From the NCBI GenBank assembly GCA_021811105.1, contig JAJZPM010000044.1, positions 1 to 33,172 on the forward strand: 33,172 nt of DNA, read 5' to 3'. A program made the position numbers and the translations under genes. Shown piece by piece: positions 373-12,037 of this stretch. Position 1 is the stretch's first letter; each line of letters begins with the position of its first letter. Source of the DNA: Nitrospirota bacterium. GTDB taxonomy: Bacteria > Nitrospirota > Thermodesulfovibrionia > Thermodesulfovibrionales > UBA6898. The notes under the pieces are model-generated. The model did not search any database. It was given only the letters and a program-made list of their open reading frames with translations, and was not told the origin of the DNA.

Positions 373-708
373 TTACGGTGAAAGCCTTAGCGACTTGCCA
401 CAGGCTGACTTTCTTAGTTTTTCTTCATGCTTTTCATAATCTCCAAGATGCGCCCGCATGAGACTTTTCCAAAGCCGACCGTGGTTGGGGACTCTAAAGT
501 GCAAGAGCTCATGAACGATTACATAATCGCTTATCTTGCGGTCCAGTTCGAGTAACTCGGCATTAAAGTTCAGGTTCCCGGCCGTGGAGCAGGACGCCCA
601 CTTGGTCCGCATCGGTCGAATGGCCAATGAATTCACTTTCACGTCTAGTTTATCCGCCCATTCGAGCACCCGTCTCTTGAACTCCTCCTTGTCGCGCCAG
701 GATATCAT
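373..708 (-). CDS. Short M48/YgjP-like (DUF45) zinc metallopeptidase
   Basis: This 111-aa protein carries the zinc-protease signature HELLHF, followed by NHGRLW, whose His is the usual third zinc ligand in the YgjP/SprT-like fold. Upstream, the stretch RTKWASCS and then NLNFN is also typical of DUF45 proteins. The family is commonly about 230 aa, so this is essentially only the catalytic half. Its ATG overlaps the hsdR stop codon (ATGA), so it is translationally coupled and is the last gene of the defence operon. Such peptidases are known companions of type I restriction genes but their role there is not established. A function in turnover of a restriction or defence subunit is inference. Confidence 0.8.
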   Translation of the reverse strand: MISWRDKEEFKRRVLEWADKLDVKVNSLAIRPMRTKWASCSTAGNLNFNAELLELDRKISDYVIVHELLHFRVPNHGRLWKSLMRAHLGDYEKHEEKLRKSACGKSLRLSP

Positions 709-3701
709 TTCCTGAAACTCTTCTGTAACAGGATAAAGAGGGCTTCGACTGTTGCGGTCACCTTTTCAATATCGTCCTCTTCAGTCACGAGGGCAAATGT
801 TACCTGCTTGCGCACCTCGCGCAATTCCGCATCACTGCCTTGCCAGTTTGGATACTGGGAGAATGCCTCCGCCACCTTCCGGCTCGCCACCTCAGGGTTC
901 GGGATGCCGTCATCAGTCAGTTTGCAGAGGACAAAATAGGTCAGGCTATCAAGGCCCTTCGCGGCCTGCTCCTTCTTTCTCTGTTCGTTCTTCTCGATCT
1001 CCCTCAGCAGTCCGGCGAGCGCGTCGGCAGTTGTCGTCTGGCGGTCTTCGAAACTTTCCTGGACAGCCCTGGCCCGTTCCGCCAAGGCGACAAGGAAGGG
1101 CTCGCCGCTATTCTCCTCTGCTGTCTTCTCGATGGATTTAATAAGGTTGATGACCTTCGTGGCTTTTCCTTCATTGCGCTGTTTGATCGTATCAAGGGTC
1201 GCTTTGTCGATCTCGACATATTCTGCAGGCAGTTCTCCAGCTATCCAGGTCCCGACATGCTTCTGCACAAGTTCATTGGTCTTTTTCTGGAAAGCCTTAT
1301 CTACATAAACCTTCTTTTCATAGGCATTTCGAACTACTACATAGACAGCGGACAGCGTCGTAAAATCCCCGATGAACGGTCGCAGGAACGCATCGGGCGA
1401 GATAATCTCGTAGAGCATCTCGATCTCTTTGTATTCCTTGAAAAACTCCTTGCGACGCTCCTTATCCCGGAAGTGTTCGATCAGGTCGTCCACGTCTTTG
1501 TCGTCGAAATTCCGCTTAATGAGCGCCAGATACGCCGGGGCACTGGTCTCCATTTTTGCCTTGAACAGGTGCTTCAGCAAGCCGAGGTCTTTGACGATAG
1601 CGTTGATCTCATCGCTGTCAAAGGCGAGCGCTTTTTCCAGTTTGTCGAAAATGCCCACAAAATCAAGCACGAAACCGTGCGGCTTCACCATCTCCTCGGC
1701 CTCATTTTCGTATGGCCTGTTCACCCGCGCGATAGCCTGCAGCAGGGTATGGTCCCGCATCGGCTTGTCCAGGTACATTGCATAAAGTATCGGCGCATCA
1801 AAGCCTGTAAGCAGTTTTTCGGTAACGATAAGAATCTTCGGCAAGTCGCCGGACTTCCTGAAATTCTTACGGATCTGCCGCTCCTTCTTCTCGTCAAGAT
1901 GCCATTTCTTCAGGCGCTTCGGATCGTTATTATTGCCGGTAAAGACGATCTCGGAATATCCGGTCGGCAGAGCCCACCCTTTGAATATCTCATCAAGCGC
2001 CTCCTTGTATAGAGCGCAGGCCTCGCGGTCCACGGCAACAAGGAATGCCTTGTAGCCAAGCGGTTCCACATTTCTCAGATAGTGATTGGCCACCAAGTCG
2101 GCAACTTTCTGCACGCGGTCCTTGCCCTTGAGAAAATTCTTCAGATTTACCGCTCTTTCGAGGATCTTGTTCAGCTCCTCGATGTCCGCGATCCCTTCGG
2201 TCTCGGCCAGTGCAAGGAACTCCTTTTCCATGATCTCGTGCGGCACGAGCATCTCGTTGGGCGCGAGGGTGTAGTAAAGCGGAAGAGTTGTGCCGTCTTC
2301 GATGCTCTCTGCGATGGAATACTTGTGCAGGTAGCCCTGATCGTCCTCGCAACCGAAGGTCTTGAACGTTCCCTTGCCGTAAGCGGTCTTGTCTACCGGC
2401 GTACCGGTAAAGCCGATATAGCTTGCGTTCGGCAGGCCGGCCATCAGGAAGTTGCCGAGGTCGCCGCCTGTTGTCCTGTGCGCCTCGTCGATAAGCACAA
2501 AGATATTCTTTCGTGTATTCAGGTCGGCAGGCATGTCGCGGAACTTATGGATCATGGTCACGATAATCCCCCGGTAGTCCTGGCCCTTTTCATCCAGCAG
2601 CTTGTTGAGCGTTGTGATCCGGTCGGCATGCGCCACGTTGCCCAACCCCACTGCCGCAAGGTTCTTGAGCATCTGGTCCTCCAGTTCGTTCCGGTCGATC
2701 ATCAAAAGGATTGTAGGTTTCTCGGCCTCCGGTGCCTTAAACAGAAGCTCTGCGGCCTTGATCATGGTATAAGTCTTGCCGCTGCCCTGCGTATGCCAGA
2801 CGAGCCCGCGCGAGCGCGTTCGGTCCAGGGCGCGAGCAACCACCCTGTCCACAGCGGTTGTCTGATGCTGGCGCAGGATGATCTTCTGGAGTTCCTCTTC
2901 CTTTTCAGCAAAGAGAATGAAGTCCTTGAGGAAGCGAAGCATATTCGGCACGGAGCAGAAGCTTTTCACCTTGGCTTCGAGATTTCCAACTTGGTCATGC
3001 TTCCAGTTGAAGAGGTTGCGTCGGACGGTGTTCCATGTCACGCCGTAGGCAAAGCCAATCGCCTCGGTGGCGGTAAAGAGCATCTCCGGCACCATCACCT
3101 CGGGTGTTTCGGCGTGGTAGCGGCGTATCTGATCGACTCCCAGAGCGATAGCCTCGTCTTTTGTTGCGTTCTTGCACTCGATCACCAACACAGGGATGCC
3201 GTTGATGAGAAAGACTATGTCTTCCCGTGTGCCATAGCTGCCGTTGTGGACATAAAACTCTTCGGTCACTTCATAGATGTTTCGGGAAGGGTTGTTGTAG
3301 TCTATGACTTGCAGATCCAGCTCGCGGCTCTCATCGGAGCAGAAGAATTTGCCCTGGTTGCGGAGGTAAGCGAGGAAATCACGGTTGCCTGCGATGTCGG
3401 CTCTTAAACGCTGCCATTCGCCGATTAAAGCACCTTCGGCCTCTTTGTATTTGGGATTGAATTCTCGGATCTTTGCGTGGAGCAGATCGCCGAAGTAGAG
3501 CGATGCACCCTGCGCCCGGCCGGCTGCCTCACTGGCCCCGTTCTTCGTCCCCTCGCCCTCTGGGAGAGGGTGAGGGTTCTGCTGAGGGGTGAATCCTCGC
3601 CGCTTCTCGGCTTCAGCACGCGGTACATAGGTCCAGCCTATCTCCTGCGCATACGCGAGGACACGGGCTTGAACGGTTTTATGTTCTCCGGGTGCAAGCA
3701 T
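705..3701 (-). CDS. hsdR: Type I restriction enzyme R subunit (HsdR)
   Basis: This is the ATP-driven translocase and endonuclease subunit of a type I restriction-modification complex (R2M2S). The 998-aa protein shows the N-terminal PD-(D/E)xK nuclease domain (YGTRED near residues 156-161, then VIECKN near 173-178). The superfamily 2 helicase motor follows: Walker A HTQGSGKT at about 303-310, DEAH at about 405-408, GFTGTP near 430-435, then LLTGFDAP and QAIARVNRP. I chose ATG 3701, which overlaps the gajB stop (TGATG) and gives the usual APGEHKTVQAR start; an in-frame GTG at 3713 would add four residues. An in-frame insertion reading NPHPLPEGEG near residues 42-51 comes from a palindromic repeat. 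The gene sits after gajB rather than next to hsdS, an unusual interruption. Confidence 0.95.
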   Translation of the reverse strand: MLAPGEHKTVQARVLAYAQEIGWTYVPRAEAEKRRGFTPQQNPHPLPEGEGTKNGASEAAGRAQGASLYFGDLLHAKIREFNPKYKEAEGALIGEWQRLRADIAGNRDFLAYLRNQGKFFCSDESRELDLQVIDYNNPSRNIYEVTEEFYVHNGSYGTREDIVFLINGIPVLVIECKNATKDEAIALGVDQIRRYHAETPEVMVPEMLFTATEAIGFAYGVTWNTVRRNLFNWKHDQVGNLEAKVKSFCSVPNMLRFLKDFILFAEKEEELQKIILRQHQTTAVDRVVARALDRTRSRGLVWHTQGSGKTYTMIKAAELLFKAPEAEKPTILLMIDRNELEDQMLKNLAAVGLGNVAHADRITTLNKLLDEKGQDYRGIIVTMIHKFRDMPADLNTRKNIFVLIDEAHRTTGGDLGNFLMAGLPNASYIGFTGTPVDKTAYGKGTFKTFGCEDDQGYLHKYSIAESIEDGTTLPLYYTLAPNEMLVPHEIMEKEFLALAETEGIADIEELNKILERAVNLKNFLKGKDRVQKVADLVANHYLRNVEPLGYKAFLVAVDREACALYKEALDEIFKGWALPTGYSEIVFTGNNNDPKRLKKWHLDEKKERQIRKNFRKSGDLPKILIVTEKLLTGFDAPILYAMYLDKPMRDHTLLQAIARVNRPYENEAEEMVKPHGFVLDFVGIFDKLEKALAFDSDEINAIVKDLGLLKHLFKAKMETSAPAYLALIKRNFDDKDVDDLIEHFRDKERRKEFFKEYKEIEMLYEIISPDAFLRPFIGDFTTLSAVYVVVRNAYEKKVYVDKAFQKKTNELVQKHVGTWIAGELPAEYVEIDKATLDTIKQRNEGKATKVINLIKSIEKTAEENSGEPFLVALAERARAVQESFEDRQTTTADALAGLLREIEKNEQRKKEQAAKGLDSLTYFVLCKLTDDGIPNPEVASRKVAEAFSQYPNWQGSDAELREVRKQVTFALVTEEDDIEKVTATVEALFILLQKSFRK
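3550..3576. repeat. Palindromic repeat inserted in frame in hsdR
   Basis: CCCTCGCCCTCT (3550-3561), loop GGG, AGAGGGTGAGGG (3565-3576). The arms are complementary apart from one G/T pair. On the hsdR strand it encodes PHPLPEGEG, the peptide signature of small palindromic elements that invade coding regions in many bacteria. It lies in the N-terminal linker of HsdR before the nuclease domain. Confidence 0.7.
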
Positions 3702-5707
3702 CAGGCAACACACTCATCTTGGCCATATATCTTAATAATTTCCCATACAGTGGTGTCGAGACCGCTTAGATATTGATGGAACCTGTCCTTGTGAACTGCA
3801 AAGCACAGTAAGTGTGTCGGACGAGAAAACCCGACATAGACCATCCTCGCTGATTGTTTAACGCGCTTTCTTTCGCTTCCCACCAGGCCCTCCATTAAGA
3901 ACTGCCTGGACAATCTCTGCGATTCATAGGACTTGGCTGCCACACCGTGGCCATCTTGGTGGAAATAAGTTTCCATGTAAAGCGTTGCTGTATGGGTTTG
4001 TCCCTTGACTGAATGAACGGTTGCGATCTCGATGTCAAACCCGTGTATGTTCACAATATTTGAAAAAGATTGTTGGGTAGTATCGGCCAGCGCAGCTGTC
4101 TCGGCTGGCTGATCAATAAACTCTCGAGACTTATTTACATCCTTTCCGAATATCTGTAATAACTTAGGAATAGTTTCCCTAATTTCTTCCACAACGTCTG
4201 TTATATCACCCCTTATCGAATATAATGTCCACTGGTAGAGGCAGAGCTTAAATTGCTCGTAAAAAACAGCATGCTTTTCTCTAAGAAACTTGAGCAGAGA
4301 GTTGCTGGTGAAGTGGCTCCCACTCTCCGGATTATTGGCATCTTCAAGGCGCAAAACTTTTAAGATGAAATTGAGTATGCTTTTTTGAACAGCCCCGAGC
4401 GTCTTATTTTTTCTATCATAATGCCGCAGATAATCTTCGAGGCAATTGTGATCTATGCGAGACTTTTGTCGCGCTTTTTGGAATGCTGGACAATAATCCA
4501 CTAATCGAAACTTGCTGCCGGTTCTGCCTTTATCCTCCGCGTTCCACTCGGAATTCCATGCGACAGCCTTAAAAATATTTTCACCACTCTCCGGTATCCT
4601 TCCTTCATCAATCAGGTTTCTTAAAATAGAAGAGAATTTGTGAACTACCGTGCAGACTGACGCGTCATCAAAAATAATGATATGTGGCTTTATGTTTACC
4701 TCGGAAAGACCGTTGATCTGAAATCCATCAGCATTATCCAGTGCAAAGAAATTCACAACTGTGGCAATTGGAATAGATAAGCGGTAACTATTGGCAAGAC
4801 TCAGCACAATCCCCCTGGCTTGCCAAGCGCTTTTCTCATCGAAGTCATTATTGTCATAGATGGATTGGTTCCGGTCACCTATCCTCTGATATCCACACTG
4901 ACATTTTCCGCCATCAAAGAAAAGCTCTTCAAGAAGGTCATGCTGGTGTTTGCCCATGTCCTGCATTTCGTCAACAAACACATAGCTAAACCTTTCTTGC
5001 ATCAGCGCCTTAGCTGCCTTCCTTTTTGACAGATGAATAGCTGCAAGAAAATATGCGTCTTCGAAATGAAGATACCCACGCCCGAAAATATCCATCTTCA
5101 TTCGCGCCAGCGTCTTGTAAGTTTCGGAGGCTGACGCTTTCTTAAGTGCGACTGCCCCGCCAATGCCATCCGTCAAATTGAACTGGTCATCAAACCTTAT
5201 TCGCTTCAAAAATGCAACTGCATCGCTCTTATTGTCGAGCCATGCCTTCGCTGGGCATTTAGCCGGTAAACATCTGTAATAACCCGCAACCGCAACATCA
5301 AATATTTCATTGTCGATTCGAGTTGGTCGCTTTCCAAACCTTGCAACATAAGCCGGTATCGCTAGAAATCTATCAACAAAACTCTGAATTGTCCCAATAT
5401 AATTCGGATAAGCGAAGAGTCTTTGGCACTGCTTACCTATCTTCTTCTTTATCTCATCCACCGCAGTATTGGTATGTGAAATCACAAGAATGCCGGAGCC
5501 ATTGCTGAAAGGTAGATAGCGTTCCAAAATTACAAGCTTGGCCAAAAGAACGGTTGTTTTCCCGCTGCCCGGCACCGCCTGTAGATCCAGGGTATCGAAG
5601 CGGTTGATGAAAGCCCGACGCTCTGCGTCGAAGGTCCTCCCCTCAGGCAGAAGTAGCCTTTCAGCATGAGCGATATCATTATCCGTGATGTTAATTTCGA
5701 CACGCAT
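3701..5707 (-). CDS. gajB: Gabija-type UvrD/Rep-like helicase (GajB-like)
   Basis: This is a superfamily 1A DNA helicase partner of the OLD-family nuclease encoded just upstream. Visible motifs are Walker A AVPGSGKT (residues 44-51), motif Ia SHTNTAVDEI (77-86), DEMQD (246-250), motif III GDRNQSIYD (277-285), motif V TVHSVKGQ and motif VI YVGFSRPTH near 624-632. At 668 aa it is longer than the roughly 500-aa GajB of the Bacillus cereus prototype. The start overlaps the gajA stop by 17 bp and its own stop overlaps hsdR (TGATG). In Gabija, GajA and GajB form a complex that cuts or degrades phage DNA. Sampled lines inside the gene are about 35-43% GC, clearly lower than about 60% in sampled hsdR and hsdM lines, suggesting separate ancestry. 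The gabija assignment rests on the pair and its order. Confidence 0.85.
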   Translation of the reverse strand: MRVEINITDNDIAHAERLLLPEGRTFDAERRAFINRFDTLDLQAVPGSGKTTVLLAKLVILERYLPFSNGSGILVISHTNTAVDEIKKKIGKQCQRLFAYPNYIGTIQSFVDRFLAIPAYVARFGKRPTRIDNEIFDVAVAGYYRCLPAKCPAKAWLDNKSDAVAFLKRIRFDDQFNLTDGIGGAVALKKASASETYKTLARMKMDIFGRGYLHFEDAYFLAAIHLSKRKAAKALMQERFSYVFVDEMQDMGKHQHDLLEELFFDGGKCQCGYQRIGDRNQSIYDNNDFDEKSAWQARGIVLSLANSYRLSIPIATVVNFFALDNADGFQINGLSEVNIKPHIIIFDDASVCTVVHKFSSILRNLIDEGRIPESGENIFKAVAWNSEWNAEDKGRTGSKFRLVDYCPAFQKARQKSRIDHNCLEDYLRHYDRKNKTLGAVQKSILNFILKVLRLEDANNPESGSHFTSNSLLKFLREKHAVFYEQFKLCLYQWTLYSIRGDITDVVEEIRETIPKLLQIFGKDVNKSREFIDQPAETAALADTTQQSFSNIVNIHGFDIEIATVHSVKGQTHTATLYMETYFHQDGHGVAAKSYESQRLSRQFLMEGLVGSERKRVKQSARMVYVGFSRPTHLLCFAVHKDRFHQYLSGLDTTVWEIIKIYGQDECVA

Positions 5708-7547
5708 GTTTGATCGCTTTCAAAAGGTACTTAATCGATTCGTCGTTATCGTCGAGAGAAATTTCCGGTGACTCTTTCTTCGAGTCTCCCTCCAGCGTCT
5801 GTGTGAGATGGTGTGCGATCTCCGTCTTGTCGAGACTCTTGTCGATTAGCTTTTTCGCCAATTCGTGCTCAAGGTTCCCGGTATCTATTTGAGGATGCGC
5901 CGTCTTCAGCGCTTGTGCGAACGCGCCAGCCAGAGAACTAGACTGGGCAAGGCAAAACTCCAGCGTCCATTTTGGCGCAACAAACACCTTCACTTTTTGT
6001 GAATTGAACTTAGATTCCTTTTCCTGGATAGCGACACCGCTATCACGTGATACATCGTCAGCATCTCTTGGCTGGTAGTTGTAAATGGCTTTTCCATTTT
6101 CATCCTTAACAACTTTACCCTCTTGATCTTGTTTGGGAATCTTGTAGACAGTTGGCACATCAATATCTGTCACGATTGAAACAGGCACATCCATTTCCGG
6201 CCCTTCTTTTCTCACGAATACTTTCGAATAGCGTAAGAATGAAGTGCCTCCGACATTGACAATGGAAACTCCCGCCTCCGTGAGATCCTTGGATATCAAG
6301 CCAGACTTCTTCATTATTCTTGCCAATGCAGGCAATAGAATTTCCTCAGCCCACCCCTCCACCATGATCACGCCCTTGGCAAAGAACAGGTTCGATTTGG
6401 TAACATCAAGAAACCATTCGAGGAACTTATGATCCGAAGTGTCTAGCGCGGTAAATTCTTTCCCCGTTTTATCCTTGCCCATGGGAAATGCCTGACAGCT
6501 GTTGCAAATAATCAGGTCATCCAGTTTGACCTTGGATGCCAAGTTCGGGCTGTGTGTCGTTAGTATGATTTGAAGATCAGCTTCGTTTTGGAGTCCCTCG
6601 ATGACCTGCATTTGCGCCTGTGGATGGAGATGGGCCTCCAATTCTTCGATGAGACCCAAGCGCAGCCCATGCCAGTTTTTCTTGTTTAGATGGACTAGCT
6701 CAGATGCCATGAACAGGCGGTTCAGAGTGCCGAGCCCCGGGTTTATCTCGTCTTCTATGGACAGTTCCAATTTTTCCAAAATACTTCTCAAGCTTCCCTC
6801 GGCAGCGGCGATATCACTGATTTTATCGCTACCAGAAAATGACTTGATATATCTGTCAACTTCGTCTTTCAGATCCTTCCCCTTTGTGTCATTAGTCAAA
6901 GGAGTATCATCAGCGTTTTTCCCCTCAAAATATTTTTCGATCGCCTTGTTGAACTCACCGAAATGACCCATCAAATGATGATCCTTCTCTTTCCCCTTGA
7001 AAGCCTCATGCCCTTGAAAGATCTGCGAGAGCCTCGAGTTTCTTTTGGGCACCAGTTCGGCCTTTGCATCACGCAGTGGCTTCAGGTAGGTCGCCTTCAA
7101 ATAGTCTCTCGCCTCTGCGCCTAGTGGATGGCCTTCACTGTCAGCTCCGGCTCTGACATCCGACGGAAAGATTCTCTCGGAATTTCTCTTTACCTCGTAG
7201 TTCAACCTCAGATATGTCTGGCACGTTGCTCCTTCGCCAGCCCAACCGATCCACTCAATGAAGTTTTTAGCCTCTTCCGGGGCCAAATCTTCAAAGGTGA
7301 GTTCGATCCGGAGTCTCTCTGTATTATTGTAGAAATCCTCCTCTGTCACCCTTGTCCACTCGAAGCTGTGTGTCCCAAGAACCAGTTTGATGGCATCAAT
7401 GATCGCAGTCTTCCCCGAATCGTTCTCACCTATCAAAACATTGAGGCCCTTTTTAAGCGGCAGACTCAGATTGGGCTTTGCTGGATCAAACTCCGTGTCC
7501 GATCCAAATTTCCTGAAGTTCCAAAGTTTTATATTTGACAAAAACAT
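5691..7547 (-). CDS. gajA: Gabija-type OLD-family ATPase-TOPRIM endonuclease (GajA-like)
   Basis: The 618-aa protein has an ABC/SMC-like ATPase half: Walker A GENDSGKT at 40-47, Walker B LGLIEELEAHLHP around 297-309, and switch histidine in TTHSPN at 330-335. A TOPRIM nuclease domain follows, with MVEGWAEE (catalytic Glu near 397) and the metal-binding DID in IVTDIDVP (461-463). This is the class 2 OLD architecture; such genes sit beside UvrD-like helicases and are the nuclease of Gabija defence. In the studied GajA, nuclease activity is held off by normal nucleotide levels and released when they fall during phage infection; whether that applies here is inference. It begins 2 bp after the hsdS stop, with GGGAG about 10 nt upstream, so it is co-transcribed with the type I genes. 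Confidence 0.87.
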   Translation of the reverse strand: MFLSNIKLWNFRKFGSDTEFDPAKPNLSLPLKKGLNVLIGENDSGKTAIIDAIKLVLGTHSFEWTRVTEEDFYNNTERLRIELTFEDLAPEEAKNFIEWIGWAGEGATCQTYLRLNYEVKRNSERIFPSDVRAGADSEGHPLGAEARDYLKATYLKPLRDAKAELVPKRNSRLSQIFQGHEAFKGKEKDHHLMGHFGEFNKAIEKYFEGKNADDTPLTNDTKGKDLKDEVDRYIKSFSGSDKISDIAAAEGSLRSILEKLELSIEDEINPGLGTLNRLFMASELVHLNKKNWHGLRLGLIEELEAHLHPQAQMQVIEGLQNEADLQIILTTHSPNLASKVKLDDLIICNSCQAFPMGKDKTGKEFTALDTSDHKFLEWFLDVTKSNLFFAKGVIMVEGWAEEILLPALARIMKKSGLISKDLTEAGVSIVNVGGTSFLRYSKVFVRKEGPEMDVPVSIVTDIDVPTVYKIPKQDQEGKVVKDENGKAIYNYQPRDADDVSRDSGVAIQEKESKFNSQKVKVFVAPKWTLEFCLAQSSSLAGAFAQALKTAHPQIDTGNLEHELAKKLIDKSLDKTEIAHHLTQTLEGDSKKESPEISLDDNDESIKYLLKAIKHACRN

Positions 7548-7549
7548 AT

Positions 7550-8752
7550 TTAATTAACTCCCGACAGATCAAGATTATTCACCCTTATCTGCGCCGTCAT
7601 CAACTGGTGGAGCAGGGTGCGGAAGAGGTCAGTAAGAGTCTTCGCCTTGCTTTTATGCGCTTTTTCTTTCCGATCCAATGCCTTGAAGACGCCAGCAATC
7701 TCCTGTTGCTCCTCCAACGAAGGAACCGGCACTGGATATGTTTTGAGATACCCGCATGTCAGTGCTCCCTTGGTACTGCCGCCCGCTTGGCTCACGGACC
7801 GCAAATGATCGTACCTCGTTTGCATATACCATAGAGCAAAATCCGGAACAACCGTTGGTGACGTGAATTGAGCATAAGCAAGATGCTGGTTAATGCAGGA
7901 CTCAAAGGCAATGAGGGCGGAGTTCCCCAACGTCTTGCCTTGTCCGGTGATGGCGATAAGCAGACTGCCAGGCTTCACATGAGGCAGATGACATTCTTTG
8001 ACCGCACGCTCGGTCACGAACTGATCTGCCTCTGTGATAAACAGCTCATGAATCTTGGCGCTGTTCAGCCAAGGGATCGCGCCGCCTTGCCAGTAGCCTT
8101 CGTTATCCCGCTTGGGGGTCGAACCATTCCCAATCTTCGCAAGAGAACCGAGTGGTACTACCTCCCAACTCTCCGGCACCGGTCCGATCTCGGTCTGTTT
8201 CTGAGGCTCGCCACGAAGGCCTTCGGTAAAGAGTTTATGAAGGAGTGTCTTTTTCAGTTCCGTGGTTCGTTGAAGCAGTTGCTCCTGCTGCTCGATAGCC
8301 CGCTGCACCACCCCCAACACCCCCGCAATCCTTCGCTGCTCATCCTTCTCGGGACACGGGACCGTCTGTTCTTTCAGGAGTGTGAAATGACGGTTGTATC
8401 CGCGATTCGGGATATCGAGACTTAGAAGCGCATAATAGAAGAACTTCGTGTCGAAAAGGTCTTCCTTGGGTTTCAATACTTTTGTTCCGTCCGCTCCGAT
8501 AATAAACGGAAAGTCCACATACTTTACGCACCGTGTATGATCGCCAAAAATTACCAGCGGGAGTTCTTGACGTATGACTCTATCCGTAGCATCAGAGTAG
8601 CCAGCTATGAACGCTTGTCCTTGATCGACGACTGGGAATTGACCTGAAGGCATAATCTCAGAAGTGAGAATTTGGTTCTCTCTGCCGACCTTCACCTTGC
8701 CTAGCGTTTCTGGAAAAGCGATTGCCTGCCATCCTGTCATAACATTGCTCAT
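7550..8752 (-). CDS. hsdS: Type I restriction-modification specificity subunit (HsdS)
   Basis: This 400-aa subunit selects the bipartite DNA target for the methylase and nuclease. It shows two target recognition domains, each followed by a conserved helical spacer. The first spacer begins at DEQRRIAGVLGVVQRAIEQQ and the second at EEQQEIAGVFKALDR. The linker phrase IGPVPESWEVVPLGSLA, which opens the second recognition domain, is very typical of the family. The ATG overlaps the upstream nuclease stop codon (ATGA); a second ATG four codons later is possible. The recognition sequence cannot be read from the protein alone. Both recognition domains look intact, so the subunit should be functional. 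Confidence 0.93.
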   Translation of the reverse strand: MSNVMTGWQAIAFPETLGKVKVGRENQILTSEIMPSGQFPVVDQGQAFIAGYSDATDRVIRQELPLVIFGDHTRCVKYVDFPFIIGADGTKVLKPKEDLFDTKFFYYALLSLDIPNRGYNRHFTLLKEQTVPCPEKDEQRRIAGVLGVVQRAIEQQEQLLQRTTELKKTLLHKLFTEGLRGEPQKQTEIGPVPESWEVVPLGSLAKIGNGSTPKRDNEGYWQGGAIPWLNSAKIHELFITEADQFVTERAVKECHLPHVKPGSLLIAITGQGKTLGNSALIAFESCINQHLAYAQFTSPTVVPDFALWYMQTRYDHLRSVSQAGGSTKGALTCGYLKTYPVPVPSLEEQQEIAGVFKALDRKEKAHKSKAKTLTDLFRTLLHQLMTAQIRVNNLDLSGVN

Positions 8753-9984
8753 GTCCCGACCCCGTAAACTGCCTCTTGCTCCCTCACAAACATCTCCTTC
8801 TCCCTCTCGATCTCCTCGATCAGCTCTTTTTCACTCGGCAGATAGAGCTTATACTTCGAGGCAAAGAGCTGTTTGTTTTCCTTGAGCACTGAGTACTTGA
8901 CCACGGTTTCGTCTTTGTCTGTGCAGAGGATTATGCCGATGGTGGGGTTGTCATCCTTGCTTTTGTACTTGTCTTCATAGAGTCGAACGTACATGTCCAT
9001 TTGCCCGATATCCTGGTGGGCCAGTTCCCCGGTCTTAAGATCGATGAGGACGAAGCATTTGAGGAGGTAGTTATAGAACACAAGATCGATGAAAAAATCT
9101 TTGGTCTCTGTACTGAGGCGCTGCTGCCGGGCGACGAAGGCGAAACCTTTGCCCAGTTCCAGCATAAACGCCTGCAGCTTGCCGATTATCGCCTGTTCGA
9201 GGTCTGATTCACGGAAATCGGGGTTGTCCTTGAGCCCGAGAAATTCGAGGACGTAGGGGTCCTTGATTAAATCCTTGGCCTCAGCAGCAAAAGGCATTGT
9301 CCTTTCCTGCATATCTTCGATAACAGGCTTCTTTTTCCGGCTCATCTTCAGCCGCTCGTAGTAAAGCGAATTAATTTGCCGATCAAGCGCACGAACCGAC
9401 CAATTCTGTTCGGCGGCTTCCCTGGCATAATAGTGGCGGGCTTCGGGCTTTTCAACACGCAGTAGCAACTTAAAATGAGACCAGGTCAAAAGGTGCCACG
9501 GTTCAGCACCTATCTCAGACTCGGCAGCACCATCTGAGCTGTCTTCAGATTTTTCACACAGTGTGTGAAAAATTGGGAAGGTGAGGTAAAACCTCCTGAA
9601 GTAGGCCAAATTTGTCATTCCAAACCCTGAGCCAAACTCGGCAACCAACCTCATTGATAGTTCTTGAATCAAAGCCTTGCCATAGCCAGCTCTTTTATGT
9701 CCCCGCTGTTCCTCCTCAACAATCATCCGACCTACATTCCAATAGGCACCCACCATGGCAAAATTGACAGCGTGATAGGTCTTTGATCGTGCCGAACGAA
9801 GAACATCTGCAACGGCCTCATAGAATTCGTGACGCAGTGCGTCACATTTCTTGACGGACTTTTCGTATACTGCCTTCTCCCAAGCTCTGTCTTTCATTTG
9901 TTTCATAGACTCACCCGGCTTGACTTCATAGGCATACTTGCTCAGAGATTCGGCAGCATCCTGCAAACGTTTCTTCTTTTTCAT
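8749..9984 (-). CDS. DUF1016/YhcG-family PD-(D/E)xK nuclease
   Basis: The 411-aa protein has the N-terminal DUF1016 domain (around residues 68-140, with YWNVGRMIVEEEQRG, GYGKALIQELS and FGMTNLAYFRRFY). A C-terminal nuclease fold follows, in which FFIDLVFYN (Asp about 300) and FVLIDLKTGE (Asp about 315, Lys about 317) form the PD-DxK core. Family members are predicted nucleases found repeatedly in defence islands and often inside type I RM loci. It overlaps hsdM upstream and hsdS downstream by four bases (ATGA), so it sits inside the modification half of the operon. Its role is unproven; an accessory nuclease is the natural reading. A 25-bp palindrome lies in the linker between its domains. 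Confidence 0.88.
   Translation of the reverse strand: MKKKKRLQDAAESLSKYAYEVKPGESMKQMKDRAWEKAVYEKSVKKCDALRHEFYEAVADVLRSARSKTYHAVNFAMVGAYWNVGRMIVEEEQRGHKRAGYGKALIQELSMRLVAEFGSGFGMTNLAYFRRFYLTFPIFHTLCEKSEDSSDGAAESEIGAEPWHLLTWSHFKLLLRVEKPEARHYYAREAAEQNWSVRALDRQINSLYYERLKMSRKKKPVIEDMQERTMPFAAEAKDLIKDPYVLEFLGLKDNPDFRESDLEQAIIGKLQAFMLELGKGFAFVARQQRLSTETKDFFIDLVFYNYLLKCFVLIDLKTGELAHQDIGQMDMYVRLYEDKYKSKDDNPTIGIILCTDKDETVVKYSVLKENKQLFASKYKLYLPSEKELIEEIEREKEMFVREQEAVYGVGT
9549..9573. repeat. Perfect palindrome inside the DUF1016 gene
   Basis: ATTTTTCACAC (9549-9559), spacer AGT, GTGTGAAAAAT (9563-9573): 11-bp perfect arms. It encodes the FHTLCEKSE segment between the DUF1016 domain and the following conserved WHLLTWSHF segment, so it may be a small inserted palindromic unit or a regulatory hairpin within the operon mRNA. 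Confidence 0.5.
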
Positions 9985-11567
9985 ACCCCGATCCTCTTCA
10001 GAATTGCCTTGAGCGCTGCATCGGTGGCTTTCGCCTCCTCCTCCAAAGCATTCAACTCCTCCACGATCTCTGCAATGGGCCGGTATTCGTCCGCCTCGCC
10101 TGTATGGATGTATCGGCTGGGCGAGATGTTATAGTCGTTCTTGGCGATCTCGTCCTTGATGACAATGCGACTGTATTTCTCCTCCTCGCGCCATTCCTTA
10201 AAAGTATTCGCAATGCGAACAATGGCCTCTTGAGGAATATAATTCTTCGGATCGCCCTTCACGAACTCGCGGCTCGCGTTCAAGAGGAACAGCTTGCCTT
10301 GCCTCTCCTTTGGCTTTTCCTTGTTGAGCACGATAACGATGCCCGGCGCGGTTGTGTTATAGAAGAGGTTTTCAGGCAGGTAAAGCACGCCCTCGATAAG
10401 GTCCTGCTCCGCAAACCAGCGTCGCACGTCCTTTTCCTTATTGGTATTTGCATTGCCGGAGCCGCGGGAGGCAGCGCCGGTGTCGAGCACCACAGCGGCC
10501 CGTCCTCCGGGTTTTAGGCTTGCGAGGATGTGCTGCATCCAGCCCCAATCAGCCTTGCTTCCCGGAAAGCCGGCTCCTTTTGGGAAGCGGTCGAGCTCGT
10601 CTGCGTCGTAGTCCTTTTCTTTGAATTCGGTCTGGTTCCACATGGGATTGGCCACCACGCGGTCGAAGGTTTGCAGGCGGTTGCCCTTGCGGAACTTGGG
10701 CTTGCGAAATGTGTCGCCTATCTGGATCTCGCCTTCCATATCGTGAATGATCATGTTCATATTAGCCATCGCCCAGGTGCCCGGCTCGTTCTCCTGACCG
10801 TAGAGCCTGGCAGGCGCGTACTTTTTCTTCGAGCGAAGGCTCATCTTCTCCTGCAATACCAGCTCGCACTTGATAAGCAGCCCGGCAGAGCCGCAGCAGG
10901 GGTCGTATATCTCCATACCGGGTTCGGGGTCCATTATATGTGCCATGACGATGCCGACTTCGGCCGGAGTATAAAACTCCCCCGCGCTCTGGCCGCTGCC
11001 CTCGGCGAACTTGCGGATCAGGTATTCGTAGCTGCGCCCGATAATGTCGGGCTCCACGTCGTTCAGACCGAGCCGTTTGGCGCTGATCGCTTCTATGAGG
11101 TTGCTGAGGCGGTCATCGTCAAGGTCGCGCTGACCGTGGGTAGTGGCGTTGAAGTCCACGCGGTCGATGATGCCCTTCAGGAGCGGGTTGGCGTCGGCGA
11201 TGGCCCGAAGGTGGCTGGTAACACGCTCGCCTTCACCGACTTGCCGCTTCGCTTCCCCGGCGCCCTCTTTCGTTTTTGGGGGAATGCGAATCACCGACCA
11301 AATGGACTTTTCGGGGTCATCCGGCTCCAACGGCAGGTAAAAGCGGACAAGCTTTTTATCATGCTTCACCAGTTTGAACGCCTTGGCCCGTGAGCCGACT
11401 TCCTGGGCGATACGGTTCAACTCATCATCGTAGACATCGCAGAGACGTTTAGCGAATATGAGCGGGAGTATGAATTCTTTGTATTTCGGCGCATCCTTTG
11501 CGCCTCGAATAGAGCAGGCAGCGTCCCAGATCCACGATTCGAGGGATTTGTCGTTACCGTTGGACAT
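9981..11567 (-). CDS. hsdM: Type I DNA methyltransferase subunit (HsdM)
   Basis: This is the N6-adenine methyltransferase of the type I system, 528 aa. The N-terminal HsdM helical domain (KYKEFILPLIFAKRLCDVYDD) precedes the Rossmann methylase. The methylase has EFYTPAEV, the SAM-binding motif DPCCGSAGL (222-230) and catalytic motif NPMW (307-310, the variant of NPPF/Y common in this HsdM group). It is the first gene of the seven-gene defence operon, with Shine-Dalgarno AGGAAAGG six bases before the ATG. The next gene overlaps its stop codon. The gene looks intact and is GC-rich (one sampled 60-base line is 60% GC), similar to hsdR and unlike gajB. Confidence 0.95.
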   Translation of the reverse strand: MSNGNDKSLESWIWDAACSIRGAKDAPKYKEFILPLIFAKRLCDVYDDELNRIAQEVGSRAKAFKLVKHDKKLVRFYLPLEPDDPEKSIWSVIRIPPKTKEGAGEAKRQVGEGERVTSHLRAIADANPLLKGIIDRVDFNATTHGQRDLDDDRLSNLIEAISAKRLGLNDVEPDIIGRSYEYLIRKFAEGSGQSAGEFYTPAEVGIVMAHIMDPEPGMEIYDPCCGSAGLLIKCELVLQEKMSLRSKKKYAPARLYGQENEPGTWAMANMNMIIHDMEGEIQIGDTFRKPKFRKGNRLQTFDRVVANPMWNQTEFKEKDYDADELDRFPKGAGFPGSKADWGWMQHILASLKPGGRAAVVLDTGAASRGSGNANTNKEKDVRRWFAEQDLIEGVLYLPENLFYNTTAPGIVIVLNKEKPKERQGKLFLLNASREFVKGDPKNYIPQEAIVRIANTFKEWREEEKYSRIVIKDEIAKNDYNISPSRYIHTGEADEYRPIAEIVEELNALEEEAKATDAALKAILKRIGV

Positions 11568-12037
11568 TACCGGCCTTTCCTAGTTTGGCACTTTAGCATA
11601 ATAAACCCTAACGTTGCATAAAGTGTGTGTATTTAGGCCGTCATTCCCGCAGTCTTTAGGCGGGAATCCATTCTTAAGAAAACATGGATGCCCGACTGAG
11701 AACCTCGGGCATGACGGAAAAAGAACTATGACCTGGAGGTAACATTCGGTGAACTCCAGCATAAGGAGTGTCATCAGGCTCAAAAGCCCGTCAATCAAGC
11801 TTTTGTGGCTGTTAATTTACAATCTTTATGCAACTGGAAGGTAAAGATAGACTCAACCGTCATCCCCGTGTATGCAAAAGTATAAAGCATAAAAGAGGAC
11901 TTGCTCAAGGGGAAACTCATATTTGCAGATAAATGGACTCGGATGTTGTGAAACTAACCGGGCAGCAGAAATCCGGTCTTTGGTGATTTTATGGCGCGAT
12001 GCCTTATTTGTCGGGCGCGAATTTCCTCAACTGATAG
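11568..12037. other. Gap between gyrB and the defence operon
   Basis: No gene is credible here. It must hold the promoter of the defence operon: on the minus strand, TATTATGCT around 11605-11597 is a possible -10 region but no clear -35 was seen. It also contains an 80-bp inverted-repeat element (11638-11717), a degenerate fragment resembling one of its arms (CCGTCATCCCCG, 11857-11868), a CAAAAGC/GCTTTTG hairpin (11781-11805), and an ACCGG/CCGGT hairpin (11957-11977) that could end gyrB transcription. Confidence 0.5.
11638..11717. repeat. 80-bp palindromic repeat element (MITE-like)
   Basis: The ends CCGTCATTCCCG (11638-11649) and CGGGCATGACGG (11706-11717) are inverted repeats with one mismatch. 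Inside are sub-hairpins CCCGC/GCGGG (11646-11664) and GCCCGA/TCGGGC (11690-11710), giving a cloverleaf-like layout. The GTCATTCCCGC...GCGGGAATCCA phrase is common in dispersed intergenic repeats of many bacterial genomes. It lies just upstream of hsdM, near the expected operon promoter. Confidence 0.65.

Follow-up and report, generated by a model that had tools for sequence, protein, structure and literature searches.

A Gabija pair in a probable exchangeable defence slot of a type I restriction-modification operon

Introduction

Extra genes are known from several type I restriction-modification loci, among them EcoprrI with prrC and the Campylobacter jejuni rlo genes (PMC2610378, PMC2928727), and the place between hsdS and hsdR is an established site of other defence genes, including PrrC, the rlo genes, TgvAB, and DarTG2 (PMC2610378, PMC11411939, PMC12255303), in agreement with a preliminary description of the locus studied here, which placed guard nucleases such as PrrC or RloC there. 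PrrC consists of one anticodon nuclease, which the restriction enzyme keeps silent. TgvAB, a GmrSD-type modification-dependent nuclease, forms a two-gene module between hsdS and hsdR in the type I operon of V. cholerae VPI-2; it protects without HsdR nuclease activity, i.e., with a nuclease-dead HsdR, and alone it gives 10- to 100-fold less protection than the full cluster against several phages (PMC11411939), so context can matter. The RRDM island of enteropathogenic E. coli has the order rptR-hsdM-hsdS-darTG2-hsdR-M48, and its authors already describe the hsdS-hsdR site as a potential hotspot of recombination for defence systems (PMC12255303).

Here we analyzed a 33,172-nucleotide stretch at the end of a contig from a Nitrospirota bacterium (hereafter the window), in which a Gabija pair lies between hsdS and hsdR. 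The window resembles RRDM in gene order, in the use of the hsdS-hsdR slot, and in the metallopeptidase gene after hsdR, but RRDM carries DarTG2 as cargo, has the RptR repressor with its operators, and has no described DUF1016 gene (PMC12255303); neither an RptR-like open reading frame (ORF) nor the operator repeats (TTTAGCTAA direct repeats upstream of hsdM) occur in positions 11568-12037 of the window. With TgvAB it shares a two-gene module between hsdS and hsdR, whereas the cargo differs, and as in both of these loci the foreign defence module is complete and on the same strand. Stand-alone Gabija, as in an Acidobacteria genome (L022) and B. cereus VD045 (8sm3), has the same two proteins in the same order but lies outside operons of other systems. 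Embedding in this slot is already known from prrC, TgvAB, and DarTG2, and what is new is Gabija as the cargo: within the part of the literature that we covered, no published description of Gabija between hsdS and hsdR was found, and Payne et al. 2024 (bioRxiv 10.1101/2024.01.29.577857, cited in PMC11411939) may list it.

A seven-gene chain with intact restriction-modification and Gabija components

All seven genes named in the preliminary description are present, in one direction and at the expected place, and form one chain on the minus strand:

11568..12037, minus strand: gap between gyrB and hsdM, 470 bp; presumed operon promoter, with a weak sigma-70-like match at 11908-11879
9981..11567, minus strand: hsdM, N6-adenine methyltransferase subunit; 528 aa, motif IV NPMW
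8749..9984, minus strand: DUF1016/YhcG PDDEXK nuclease, PADLOC candidate PDC-S02; 411 aa, between hsdM and hsdS
7550..8752, minus strand: hsdS, specificity subunit; 400 aa, two Methylase_S stretches
5691..7547, minus strand: gajA, ABC ATPase of the OLD family with a TOPRIM nuclease; 618 aa, Walker A (GENDSGKT) and TOPRIM residues E397/D461/D463 intact
3701..5707, minus strand: gajB, UvrD-like SF1 helicase; 668 aa, PGSGKT, DEMQD, GDRNQSI, HSVKG, and GFSR present
705..3701, minus strand: hsdR, restriction and translocation subunit of the type I enzyme; 998 aa counted from the ATG at 3701
373..708, minus strand: ygjP-like zinc metallopeptidase, HELLH; 111 aa, constant 3' neighbour in the hsdR clade

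From hsdM to ygjP the junctions measure -4, -4, +2, -17, -1, and -4 bp, three of the overlaps being ATGA and two measuring 17 bp and 1 bp, next to a single 2-bp gap; this bears out the earlier figure of 1- to 17-bp overlaps or a 2-bp gap. The 1-bp gajB/hsdR overlap, TGATG at the gajB stop, holds if translation of hsdR begins with the ATG at 3701. A mechanical call placed the start at the GTG at 3713, which is probably wrong because relatives align from the ATG. Scanning for promoters and terminators gave match counts at chance level and no usable internal signal.

The restriction-modification genes make up a type I set, with methylase, target recognition, nuclease, and motor motifs in HsdM, HsdS, and HsdR. 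Profile searches match HsdM to N6_Mtase (306 bits) and HsdR to HSDR_N plus SWI2_SNF2 (NCBIfam hsdR, 448 bits versus a cut-off of 285). Motif IV of HsdM reads NPMW, versus the usual NPPF/Y, in the window and in 11 relatives; it is a feature of the clade and no sign of decay. The last gene, described earlier as a short M48 peptidase, does encode a metallopeptidase, but YgjP-like (PF01863, 102 bits, HELLH motif) is a better name than plain M48. The DUF1016 gene product combines DUF1016_N with a YhcG_C PDDEXK domain. Payne et al. 2024 reportedly deal with defence genes embedded in other defence operons, and this gene, as PADLOC candidate PDC-S02, may be compared with the embedded candidates of that work.

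The two genes previously called gajA-like and gajB-like prove to be a real Gabija pair in the hsdS-hsdR slot. PADLOC matches both over their full length (GajA 733 bits, GajB 747 bits; subfamilies PDLC00099/00146), and profile searches find AAA_15 plus an OLD-like TOPRIM in GajA and a UvrD-helicase domain with conserved SF1 motifs in GajB. Across 25 relatives, GajA residues G40, G45, K46, E397, D461, and D463 are invariant. The AlphaFold model of GajA (pLDDT 88) has solved GajA structures as its best structural matches, aligned over full length (8x5i, Z 20.4; 8sm3, the GajAB of B. cereus VD045, Z 20.1), although the protein is far in sequence from B. cereus GajA, a profile match only; direct phmmer searches of the PDB with GajA and GajB did not retrieve the GajA/GajB entries, while the profile and the structure model did find GajA. 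Judged from sequence, then, this is a complete Gabija pair, both proteins full length and with their motifs intact.

The gene order recurs in other genomes

The operon block lies directly after gyrB in the dnaA-dnaN-gyrB region, near the contig end. In same-genus genomes, the alignment runs through gyrB and stops at its end, no hsd genes follow, and this hsdR is found in none, suggesting that the block is an island not fixed in the genus. GC content is lower in gajB (0.445) and gajA (0.469) than in hsdR (0.540), hsdM (0.563), and gyrB (0.553), and of the 10 operons in which GC was measured, the window among them, 9 have cargo with a lower GC than their hsdR.

The order itself was recovered elsewhere, so that its absence from other genomes, which the preliminary description would have taken as refutation, does not apply. 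The gajAB pair lies between hsdS and hsdR, with ygjP behind, in two other loci (L021 in genome G255, hsdM-hsdS-gajA-gajB-hsdR-ygjP; L132 in genome G006, hsdS-gajA-gajB-hsdR-ygjP), and a gammaproteobacterial MAG (L070) has hsdM-DUF1016-hsdS-gajA-gajB up to the contig end after gajB. A Methanoculleus locus (L069) holds hsdM-like genes, gajA, gajB, and hsdR. One locus of the same phylum (L020) starts at a contig end and was left out of the context comparison. Such recurrence across independent genomes means that chance does not explain the arrangement. In L070, a Mutator-family transposase gene (8637-9890) splits gajA.

Related operons carry other defence systems in the same slot

The comparison covered 20 operons with an HsdR identity of at least 58% and a readable gene or gap before hsdR. 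HsdR searches covered the own phylum and class plus samples of two other groups, with genomes evenly drawn and non-exhaustive; many loci come from draft or metagenome assemblies, and the counts depend on the genomes sampled. The slot is occupied in 19 of the 20, with nine or more kinds of cargo:

Gabija: window, L132, L021
Thoeris: L194, L204
SIR2-HerA: L197, L140
Fic/SoFic: L137, L199, L196, L195 (with DUF6119)
Upx: L133
McrBC: L134
Drt1a (DRT1) plus DUF1016: L139
RhuM, with a weak TIR match: L203
PDC-M68B: L198
Ppl-like ATPase plus DUF1016: L171
No assigned system: L138, L135
Empty, 6 bp: L141

These names are profile matches, and Fic of L195/L196, RhuM, PDC-M68B, and the Ppl-like gene are weaker as evidence of defence than Gabija, Thoeris, SIR2-HerA, Upx, and Drt1a. 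A contig end cuts the hsdS side in L199 and L171, and hsdR is broken in L135; L136 (HsdR 90%) and L155 (broken hsdR) were excluded from cargo scoring. More distant frames carry DSR2 plus AbiU, a Sir2-Ago pair, AbiU or AriAB-like genes, or no insert. Relatives of hsdR found by DNA in E. coli belong to another type I family, with hsdS abutting hsdR in the three loci read.

Since related operons almost always carry another defence system at this spot, it looks like an exchangeable slot. The alternative, that the pair landed in the operon by chance piling-up within a defence island and without selection for position, would fit the absence of the whole block after gyrB in same-genus genomes, a mark of an acquired island, and the fact that most gajAB pairs are free-standing; nevertheless, in 19 of the 20 close operons an insert occupies this very point on the same strand, with hsdR and ygjP behind, and three different gajAB lineages are present at the slot, which makes this alternative very improbable.

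While the cargo changes, the frame is conserved. In pairwise global alignments with the window, HsdM is 64-88% and HsdR 59-85% identical across frames, and HsdS 31-65%; in the nearest frames, HsdM reaches 84-88% and HsdR 79-85%, with HsdS at 37-40% (65% in one) and unrelated cargo. The HsdR tree, with 22 labelled tips, requires at least 15 cargo changes, and the tips with Gabija, with Fic, with Thoeris, and with SIR2-HerA are in each case dispersed. A YgjP-like HELLH metallopeptidase gene stands 3' of hsdR in every frame read with HsdR at least 58% identical (window 373-708, L021, L132-L141, L171, L194-L199, L203, and L204), whereas hsdS and cargo vary; it is the constant fourth part of the frame in this restriction clade, and its product possibly acts in the turnover of HsdR or of protein-DNA complexes.

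Slot-borne Gabija pairs are of several lineages

The three Gabija tips on the HsdR tree need three separate changes, forced by well-supported branches. On the GajA tree, five changes, four of which are forced, are required for the gajA genes with hsd genes nearby, and slot-borne GajA has no clade of its own; the placement of L021 and L132 there is unsure owing to long branches, and their gajAB PADLOC subfamilies (PDLC00071/00106 and PDLC00086/00104) both differ from those of the window. The three slot-borne pairs are, as far as sequence comparison can tell, different lineages with independent origins. The closest GajA relative, 70% identical, is the free-standing one of the Acidobacteria locus L022, with no hsd gene near and a gajA/gajB overlap of 17 bp as in the window, suggesting that the pair moves as a unit. 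GajA relatives in genome contigs were found with an alignment query, a single-protein scan having given none, and an hsd gene lies close by on the same strand in only 4 of 80 sampled gajA loci.

The preliminary description had put the locus forward as a composite system in which Gabija backs up restriction. A dedicated Gabija-restriction composite is not supported: at least nine cargo kinds occur across the 20 operons, the Gabija pairs there are of three lineages, and the closest gajAB is free-standing. A looser guard, with Gabija silenced by the restriction enzyme, triggered when an anti-restriction protein blocks that enzyme, or fed by HsdR-generated DNA ends when a phage blocks RecBCD/AddAB, has several points in its favor: prrC, a proven guard, uses the same slot (PMC2610378), all genes of the operon are tightly coupled, HsdR cuts yield linear ends of the kind on which Gabija acts without RecBCD action (PMC12407980), and the anti-restriction protein Ocr activates Gabija, as PMC12255303 states with reference to earlier work. 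Against this, the slots of sister operons carry systems with unrelated triggers (Thoeris, SIR2-HerA, DRT1, McrBC, Fic), slot-borne GajA forms no separate group, and GajA relatives occur without hsd surroundings in the other 76 of the 80 loci, which leaves such a tie unlikely. No sequence feature points to HsdR backup, to firing on HsdR blockade, or to HsdR binding by Gabija, and the slot of the window encodes an ATPase-TOPRIM protein and a helicase, with no anticodon nuclease domain. A PrrC- or RloC-like nuclease was considered as slot content and had no match among the listed families; nor did PrrC or RloC match the slot proteins scanned, a subset of slot ORFs of at least about 60-90 aa. A stricter form, in which HsdR cuts or phage blockade of HsdR would license GajAB, so that restriction and DNA-end surveillance make one two-step circuit repeatedly selected in three lineages and one slot family, is in our judgment decidedly unlikely.

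A proposed fixed frame with an exchangeable cassette

The reading that we favor, and consider likely, is a type I operon with a fixed frame and an exchangeable defence cassette, here Gabija, which is co-expressed with restriction yet works independently. The frame of the clade would be hsdM ... hsdS-[slot]-hsdR-ygjP, with a slot that takes interchangeable, self-contained defence modules and, between hsdM and hsdS, a second insertion point occupied in the window by the DUF1016 nuclease gene. One transcript from the hsdM promoter, together with translational coupling, would have the cargo made alongside the restriction enzyme. HsdM, HsdS, and HsdR would cut incoming unmethylated DNA by standard type I action. 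In P. aeruginosa, Gabija acts on linear DNA without RecBCD/AddAB processing (PMC12407980), and by analogy GajA and GajB may act separately on linear phage DNA unprocessed by RecBCD/AddAB. Phages that escape restriction through DNA modification or anti-restriction proteins would therefore meet a second, methylation-independent barrier, and the two layers would be complementary, with restriction reading methylation and Gabija reading DNA ends. The window genome has a RecB/AddA-like frame of 1029 aa, below the recB cut-off. We infer the independent working of the cargo from its turnover and from one published analogue, TgvAB, the most direct one.

Exchange of the cassette, frequently together with a new hsdS, probably proceeds through homologous recombination, with conserved hsdM and hsdR as the arms; no recent recombination breakpoint was seen. 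A slot that hosts so many systems could nevertheless persist because all of them profit from restriction.

Beyond the known slot, these comparisons add a measured picture of its turnover rate: one type I clade, which occurs in each of the three broad genome groups sampled, has a fast-turnover, exchangeable defence slot. Operons with the same frame and different cargo are a natural set for asking whether there is synergy or merely shared expression, and the slot marks a defined spot in which to search for new defence modules. Where scanned, the slot genes at L138:4903-5810 and 5824-6582, L135:12615-14265, L198:13600-14919, and L161:5190-8549 have no PADLOC match, and Pfam likewise gives nothing for the L135 and L138 genes that were run against it; by position, the slot genes of these four loci are candidate defence modules.

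Minor observations

Downstream of ygjP, positions 1-69 of the window (minus strand) hold the first part of an ORF, truncated by the contig end, whose product resembles a ribbon-helix-helix (CopG-type) protein. The DUF1016 nuclease gene shifts between operon junctions, lying between hsdM and hsdS in the window (8749-9984), L134, and L070 and before hsdR in L139 and L171; in a Fusobacterium record (L016), it directly precedes a gajAB pair. L203 has two RhuM-family genes (9736-10761 and 5363-6460), one at each insertion point, hsdM-hsdS and hsdS-hsdR.
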